This document shows positions 18,911 through 42,416 of a stretch of DNA of 64,000 nucleotides, in pieces; position 1 is the stretch's first letter; each line of letters opens with the position of its first letter. The DNA lies in NCBI RefSeq assembly GCF_015687155.1, contig NZ_JADPQF010000004.1, positions 248,001 through 312,000 on the forward strand. The letters run 5' to 3'. The notes under the pieces are model-generated. The model did not search any database, had not been told where the DNA came from, and saw nothing but the letters and a program-made list of their open reading frames with translations. Position numbers and translations under genes: made by a program. The DNA is from Aliikangiella sp. G2MR2-5 (lineage in GTDB: Bacteria > Pseudomonadota > Gammaproteobacteria > Enterobacterales > Kangiellaceae).

Positions 18911-19002
18911 AATTTAAATCCTCTTGCGTTAATCAAGCAAGTTATTTGCCTTTATGCGCGACTTAATAAATCCGCCACAGGCAATTCTAATTGCTTGCTA
19001 GT

Positions 19003-19029
19003 TTAGCACTCTAAATTCAAGAGTGCTAA
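19003..19029 (-). promoter_or_regulatory. CIRCE operator 1 upstream of rpoH
   Basis: A perfect match to the HrcA operator consensus: TTAGCACTC, nine-nt spacer (19012-19020), GAGTGCTAA. It lies about 93 nt upstream of the rpoH start codon. HrcA repression of groE and dnaK through this element is well established; its use at rpoH is inferred here. Confidence 0.92.
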
Positions 19030-19033
19030 TTTT

Positions 19034-19060
19034 TTAGCACTTATCCTATCAGAGTGCTAA
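19034..19060 (-). promoter_or_regulatory. CIRCE operator 2 upstream of rpoH
   Basis: A second operator only 4 nt from the first: TTAGCACTT, nine-nt spacer, GAGTGCTAA, with one mismatch to consensus in one arm. Centre-to-centre distance is 31 bp, about three helical turns, so two HrcA dimers could sit on the same face. Confidence 0.88.
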
Positions 19061-19076
19061 AAATCCAAAAAGTTTC
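19049..19076 (-). promoter_or_regulatory. Possible sigma-E-type promoter of rpoH
   Basis: On the minus strand GAAACTT (19076-19070) is separated by 16 nt from TCTGA (19053-19049). This is close to the sigma-E pattern GGAACTT-N16-TCTGA used at the enteric rpoH P3 promoter. The -10 element lies inside CIRCE operator 2, so HrcA binding would block it. One mismatch in the -35 box; assignment is by eye. Confidence 0.5.
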
Positions 19077-40284: not shown

Positions 40285-41934
<1,650 letters not shown>

Positions 41935-42373: not shown

Positions 42374-42401
42374 ATATGGGGGCAAATTTTTAGCACTCAA
42401 C
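42374..42401 (-). promoter_or_regulatory. Sigma-32-type promoter of groESL
   Basis: On the minus strand GTTGAGT (42401-42395) and CCCCATAT (42381-42374) are 13 nt apart. The -10 element is a full match to the heat-shock pattern CCCCATNT and the -35 is close to CTTGAAA. The -35 lies inside the CIRCE operator. A housekeeping reading (TTGAGT-N17-ATATTA) is possible from the same bases. Confidence 0.75.
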
Positions 42402-42416
42402 CCCCTTGAGTGCTAA
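42390..42416 (-). promoter_or_regulatory. CIRCE operator of groESL
   Basis: TTAGCACTC, spacer of nine nt (42399-42407), GAGTGCTAA: a perfect HrcA operator. It overlaps the -35 region of the groESL promoter, so HrcA would block polymerase. The rest of the 373-nt gap to the SNF2 gene shows no gene. Confidence 0.95.

Follow-up and report, generated by a model that had tools for sequence, protein, structure and literature searches.

HrcA very probably binds two tandem CIRCE elements upstream of rpoH in Aliikangiella sp. G2MR2-5 and shuts the rpoH promoters, with the operator doubling as a promoter for sigma-E and for the housekeeping sigma factor. In the textbook view HrcA/CIRCE repression and sigma-32 activation are alternative or parallel systems, and sigma-32 of E. 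coli is controlled mainly through translation and stability. The stretch of DNA analysed (the window, 64,000 nt) was searched with the CIRCE pattern TTAGCACTC-N9-GAGTGCTAA, against which mismatches were counted. Three matches with at most three mismatches were found, and a chance origin is ruled out by dinucleotide shuffles of the window, 0/100 of which reached three matches (mean 0.01). An earlier note on this DNA had described tandem CIRCEs before rpoH, one perfect and one with a single mismatch, 4 nt apart, and a sigma-E-like promoter, GAAACTT-N16-TCTGA, entering the distal one. The tandem is exact to the base, and the promoter sequence reads as described with its -10 inside the CIRCE. Towards rpoH the order is GAAACTT, N16, TCTGA within the distal CIRCE, AAAA, the proximal CIRCE and ACT. 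Because the linker is AAAA, the CIRCEs lie 31 bp apart. The -35 agrees with the sigma-E motif at 6/7 positions and the -10 keeps TC and the final A. The inner arms of both CIRCEs and the linker also form a third inverted repeat, AGTGCTAA-AAAA-TTAGCACT, at 19022-19041.

Table. Features of the rpoH and groESL loci in window coordinates
Feature	Position	Strand	Basis or remark
rpoH, sigma-32, 282 aa	18062..18910	-	TIGR02392 411 bits (cut-off 323); NF005143 439 bits
Proposed extended -10, TGCTAAACT	19000..19008	-	right arm of proximal CIRCE + ACT
Proximal CIRCE, predicted HrcA operator	19003..19029	-	pattern search; 0 mismatches
AAAA linker between both CIRCEs	19030..19033	-	fixes the operator spacing
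Distal CIRCE, predicted HrcA operator	19034..19060	-	pattern search; 1 mismatch
Sigma-E-type -10, TCTGA	19049..19053	-	within distal CIRCE
Sigma-E-type -35, GAAACTT	19070..19076	-	differs from GGAACTT at one base; spacer to -10 is 16 nt
groEL	40285-41922		ORF named from sequence
groES, other predicted HrcA target of the genome	41985..42272	-	ORF named from sequence
groESL sigma-32-like promoter, GTTGAGT-N13-CCCCATAT	42374..42401	-	-35 inside CIRCE
groESL CIRCE	42390..42416	-	pattern search; 0 mismatches

The genes upstream of rpoH are ftsX, ftsE and ftsY. That the inverted repeats are an ftsYEX terminator or another RNA structure, and not operators, is scarcely credible. A hairpin resembling a terminator, T run included, does lie on the plus strand (19003-19029), but ftsX and rpoH are both read from the minus strand; the CIRCE hairpins lack a T run there, and the terminator was rejected on that ground. 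Furthermore, the arms are the HrcA consensus, recurring at groES and hrcA and tracking hrcA itself.

The earlier note had named a lack of hrcA as grounds against HrcA control. A single hrcA gene is present in the genome, 6 kb past the window on the same contig, and scores 308 bits against TIGR00331, above the curated cut-off of 197. A single RpoE exceeds its curated cut-off (TIGR02939, 312 bits, cut-off 236). The genome (5.02 Mb, 36 contigs) holds three CIRCEs with up to one mismatch; none is added at two mismatches and one at three. Because the reversed control pattern itself gives two matches at three mismatches, the fourth was rejected as a chance match. No CIRCE with up to three mismatches lies near hrcA, and an HrcA operator at hrcA-grpE-dnaK of this genome was rejected. 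The interval between hrcA and the next gene, read by eye as grpE, carries a sigma-32-like CTTGAAT-N13-CCCCATAT. The groES CIRCE is also fused to a sigma-32-like promoter (42374-42416, minus strand), a second case of operator bases serving a sigma factor. The sigma-32 consensus used for comparison is the one printed in the available portion of PMC545781.

Kangiellaceae, which NCBI places in Gammaproteobacteria, were examined for conservation of the locus. RpoH was located in 37/40 genomes of the family, and in 37/37 of these loci a CIRCE with up to two mismatches precedes the nominal start by 58 to 193 nt. Non-conservation of the repeats in close relatives, which had been put forward as a reason to abandon the idea, is thus not what was found. 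Two CIRCEs (up to three mismatches) are present at 29/37 loci, so the distal copy is kept in 29/37; their spacing is 31 bp in 26, 30 bp in two and 33 bp in one. An alignment of the 26 tandems with 31-bp spacing revealed nearly invariant operator arms and mostly variable spacer columns, in the proximal copy as elsewhere. The T at +3 past the proximal CIRCE, found in 26/26, is the sole invariant column outside the operators and linker between -22 and +79.

Besides this genome, hrcA was found in 36/39 Kangiellaceae relatives, and 35/37 genomes with a CIRCE at rpoH have it. Among order members outside the family, one (G049) has hrcA. The best rpoH CIRCE in these 35 is perfect in 21, has one mismatch in 13 and two mismatches in one. 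Two of the three relatives in which hrcA was not found have RpoH (G002, locus L091, and G013, locus L111), and each has a single degraded rpoH CIRCE with two mismatches. Completeness ratings of the hrcA-less assemblies are 98 and 100%. G002 and G013 are, to judge from these matches, natural losses of hrcA with a decayed rpoH operator. The inverted repeat at rpoH, hrcA in the same genome and the conservation of both together in relatives are the sequence marks of an HrcA/CIRCE regulon, and all were found. G015 also carries a second, broken rpoH-like copy (contig C30, 5496-6480; 60% identity across 7 stops), and a perfect CIRCE precedes it by about 130 bp.

Co-occurrence with hrcA was then compared across the class in the GTDB sense. 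GTDB's Gammaproteobacteria includes the betaproteobacteria, and the counts pool beta and gamma members undivided. hrcA was detected in 277 of 370 sampled class genomes. The first draw comprised one genome per GTDB family, and its first 64 genomes with hrcA and first 16 without it were taken; six and one, respectively, were dropped for lack of an RpoH match at 1e-50, leaving 58 and 15. The 400 nt before RpoH contain a CIRCE with up to two mismatches in 51/58 genomes with hrcA vs 1/15 without. Three further hrcA-bearing genomes have a CIRCE only at three mismatches, and 4/58 have none before rpoH even at that threshold. The exception without hrcA (G127) keeps its rpoH CIRCE; a relative of the same genus (G260) has hrcA. 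A predicted CIRCE before rpoH is the usual state among hrcA-bearing members of the class. The CIRCE pair at rpoH noted earlier is real, and the predicted link between HrcA and rpoH is not peculiar to this bacterium; an oddity of one genome was rejected, the rpoH CIRCE being conserved through family and class.

A set of named genomes gave a similar separation. An rpoH CIRCE was found at 19/80 RpoH loci. Among 50 of the 80 genomes searched for hrcA, chosen to include all 19 with an rpoH CIRCE (the other 30 all lack one there), the CIRCE is present in 18/18 with hrcA vs 1/32 without. The one exception is a 1.7-Mb MAG (L037). Another locus, L023, at which no hrcA was detected in the genome, has GGAACTT 69 nt before rpoH followed by a damaged CIRCE-like repeat, TTGGCACTT...GTGCTA, which may be an operator in decay. 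One genome (G143) has two rpoH copies, L146 and L175, only one of which is preceded by a CIRCE.

The sigma-E promoter was examined at 54 class, 37 family and 17 named rpoH loci, with 48 CIRCEs at other genes (37 groES and 11 hrcA) as controls. The class loci include the hrcA-less genome G127 (as L204) and omit L150, whose perfect CIRCE was counted in the class test but which the script did not orient. An uncultured Kangiellaceae bacterium (L006) and Pleionea sediminis (L007) were counted as family, outside the 17 named loci. GAACTT, with at most one mismatch, starts exactly 15 bases before the CIRCE at 23/54 class and 21/37 family loci; at offsets outside -16 to -14 it never exceeds three in the class or five in the family. 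At this distance 16 nt separate the -35 from the TC of the CIRCE (positions 8-9), and the A of TCnnA is supplied by the third spacer base. That base is A at 41/54 class rpoH loci vs 9/48 groES and hrcA CIRCEs (Fisher 6e-9). The -35 core GAAC lies at -16 to -14 of the CIRCE at 34/54 class rpoH loci vs 2/48 controls (Fisher 8e-11) and, moved by other offsets, at no more than six.

A strict sigma-E-like match was defined as GGAACTT with up to one mismatch, N15-17 and TCnnA. It was found at 31/54 class, 31/37 family and 8/17 named rpoH loci vs 1/48 controls, and in randomised sequences at most twice; it is absent from 23/54 class, 6/37 family and 9/17 named loci. The -10 lies within the CIRCE at 24/54 class and 22/37 family loci, and the promoter is displaced upstream of the CIRCE in nine family loci and some class loci. 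In one Kangiellaceae genus (g5, L117-L122) a sigma-E-like promoter is shifted about 23 bp upstream, with its -10 before the CIRCE and not inside it. Motifs about 16 nt apart, rpoE in the genome and a position kept across species are all features of a sigma-E promoter, and all three were found here. The sigma-E promoter proposed at rpoH is supported by a -35 at fixed distance from the CIRCE in many families, unlike at the groES and hrcA CIRCEs, and it remains a predicted promoter.

The right arm of the CIRCE together with T at +3 reads TGCTAAnnT, an extended -10; at rpoH of this genome TGCTAAACT is of the TGnTAnnnT type. The T follows the gene-proximal rpoH CIRCE at 52/54 class, 17/17 named and 36/37 family loci. 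Elsewhere it follows 3/37 groES and 6/11 hrcA CIRCEs (class rpoH vs groES, Fisher 4e-19). In the 29 Kangiellaceae tandems it stands after the proximal copy in 29/29 and after the distal copy in 6/29, and the -35 precedes the distal copy. This arrangement, with the T at the proximal copy and the -35 at the distal copy, suggests that the two copies share out two promoters. A sigma-70 scan upstream of rpoH, requiring 4/6 in each hexamer and 9/12 in total, found 0 promoters where 0.8 were expected, and under the same rule no -35 hexamer lies 16-18 nt from the extended -10. Extended -10 promoters can function without a -35.

It is possible, if somewhat doubtful, that HrcA represses rpoH with only the sigma-E promoter being real, and that TGCTAAnnT is an extended operator edge or an early-transcript feature. 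The empty two-hexamer scan and the frequency of the T at hrcA CIRCEs both agree with the lack of a second promoter. However, the T is nearly missing at the groES CIRCEs of the same repressor, favours the proximal copy strongly in the family tandems, and is kept at some loci without a recognisable GGAACTT, e.g. in four Pseudoalteromonas. These observations weigh against that alternative.

The content of the HrcA regulon was examined in 38 class genomes, which have one to three CIRCEs each at up to one mismatch among the sites listed. 74/74 CIRCE loci fetched and tested precede rpoH (26), groES (37) or hrcA (11), and none lies elsewhere. In six named genomes, four of Pseudoalteromonas (L012, L015, L025, L028), one of Rheinheimera (L031) and one of Alishewanella (L041), the lone CIRCE at up to one mismatch is that of rpoH. 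Two of the six have one extra CIRCE each at two mismatches; the 1.5 kb around these contains no match to groES, groEL, hrcA or rpoH. The groES upstream regions have no CIRCE in 6/6, the best window having seven or eight mismatches, and in at least five a sigma-32-like promoter, CTTGG...CCCCAT, was recognised by eye before groES. Because a CIRCE is present at rpoH and none at groES, the predicted HrcA target kept in these genomes seems to be rpoH and not groESL. HrcA has diverged in all six, scoring 33-47 bits in the four Pseudoalteromonas and 129-138 in the other two vs about 200. In two of the six (L289 and L290), hrcA adjoins a gene read as grpE; the other neighbour, tested in L289 only, is an NAD kinase gene. 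Against TIGR00331 (cut-off 197), the L289 protein falls under the cut-off with 118 bits and that of L290 lies over it with 232. Two Halioglobus MAGs also have a single CIRCE, located at rpoH.

The rpoH CIRCEs could in principle be relics, with HrcA irrelevant and the level of rpoH set post-transcriptionally as in E. coli. This explanation is improbable. It accords with the loss of hrcA in many class members (93/370 without a match) and with hrcA-less genomes that retain rpoH with a sigma-E-like promoter alone, the strict match occurring at 14/31 named hrcA-less loci and, in nine of these, preceding the start by 69-106 nt. Against it, the operators track hrcA across the class sample and are degraded in the two hrcA-less Kangiellaceae. 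Nor does the relic explanation fit the six named genomes that retain a CIRCE at rpoH and none at groES.

Direct HrcA control of rpoH, as suggested in the earlier note, is strongly supported at the level of sequence by an intact hrcA, the operators of the family, the co-occurrence in the class and the decay in two hrcA-less relatives. Binding, repression, sigma usage, cooperativity and GroEL titration at rpoH are what we infer from it. HrcA would occupy both CIRCEs and block RNA polymerase at rpoH. The distal CIRCE would provide the sigma-E -10, and the proximal CIRCE with ACT the housekeeping extended -10. Because the operator bases are the promoter bases of both promoters, bound HrcA would cover both. 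The 31-bp operator spacing, about three turns of the helix, suggests that two HrcA dimers probably sit next to each other. Upon heat or protein damage HrcA would lose its GroEL helper by titration and be released. rpoH would then be transcribed, with sigma-E adding more under envelope stress, and sigma-32 would in turn activate grpE-dnaK and groESL. Because HrcA would also repress groESL directly, its direct action there and its indirect action through rpoH would form a coherent feed-forward loop with chaperone feedback.

The HrcA system probably sits atop the sigma-32 system here and in most of the sampled relatives that retain hrcA. With slightly less than even confidence, we propose a wider model for hrcA-bearing Gammaproteobacteria in the GTDB sense. 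The rpoH CIRCE would be a two-sigma promoter gated by one repressor, its left half serving as the sigma-E -10 and its right half as the extended -10. Tandem duplication in Kangiellaceae would have split both jobs between operators in helical phase, Pseudoalteromonas and its neighbours would keep HrcA for rpoH alone, and rpoH control of the E. coli type would be derived, arising after loss of hrcA and the operator. Should HrcA gate rpoH in all hrcA-bearing members of the class, both systems would be joined there in a single cascade, and the arrangement of E. coli would be what was left after HrcA loss. The locus would also be a clear case of operator arms used as promoter elements by two different sigma factors.

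A paper by Permina and Gelfand (2003) reportedly treats HrcA regulons of beta- and gammaproteobacteria and may already list a CIRCE before rpoH in some species. Because it covers both groups, the class-wide link between HrcA and rpoH is not claimed here as unprinted. What appears to be new is that the feature is nearly general among hrcA-bearing class members, that some regulons are confined to rpoH, and that one operator contains two predicted promoters. The earlier note knew of no description of HrcA control for rpoH, but a CIRCE there has been in print since 2004, when Rodionov et al. predicted a perfect one at -51 of rpoH in Geobacter sulfurreducens (PMC545781, where Permina and Gelfand 2003 is the source cited for the profiles). 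As far as the available text of that paper goes, an HrcA operator at rpoH as such has precedent. The open literature searched yielded no other statement of a CIRCE before rpoH in the portions available, and the accessible part of PMC10696704 does not mention HrcA at rpoH.

G. sulfurreducens, as described in the available part of PMC545781, shares with this genome a CIRCE at rpoH, a CIRCE at groESL and hrcA. It differs in being a deltaproteobacterium with a single rpoH CIRCE, reported as one target in one genome, and in having a CIRCE also at hrcA-grpE-dnaKJ; that portion of the paper discusses no sigma-E promoter or promoter overlap. RpoE was located at rpoH of V. alginolyticus by ChIP, with the canonical motifs GGAACTT/TCAAA (PMC4890791), and fam of B. 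bronchiseptica was transcribed in vitro by SigE (PMC3490749). These two promoters and E. coli rpoHP3 have, as here, GGAACTT/TCAAA-type elements and an RpoE-like sigma factor (PMC4890791, PMC3490749). In the accessible portions of both papers no HrcA operator is mentioned for them, whereas here the predicted -10 lies inside a CIRCE. The GroEL titration model comes from B. subtilis, Chlamydia and H. pylori (PMC6032397). According to the part of that source available, B. subtilis, H. pylori and others share HrcA, CIRCE-type operators over the core promoter and start, and GroE titration, and the targets described are chaperone operons, namely groESL and, in H. pylori, also hrcA-grpE-dnaK (PMC6032397). 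Unlike in B. subtilis and H. pylori as described there, the predicted HrcA target here is a sigma factor, and dnaK would be reached through sigma-32.
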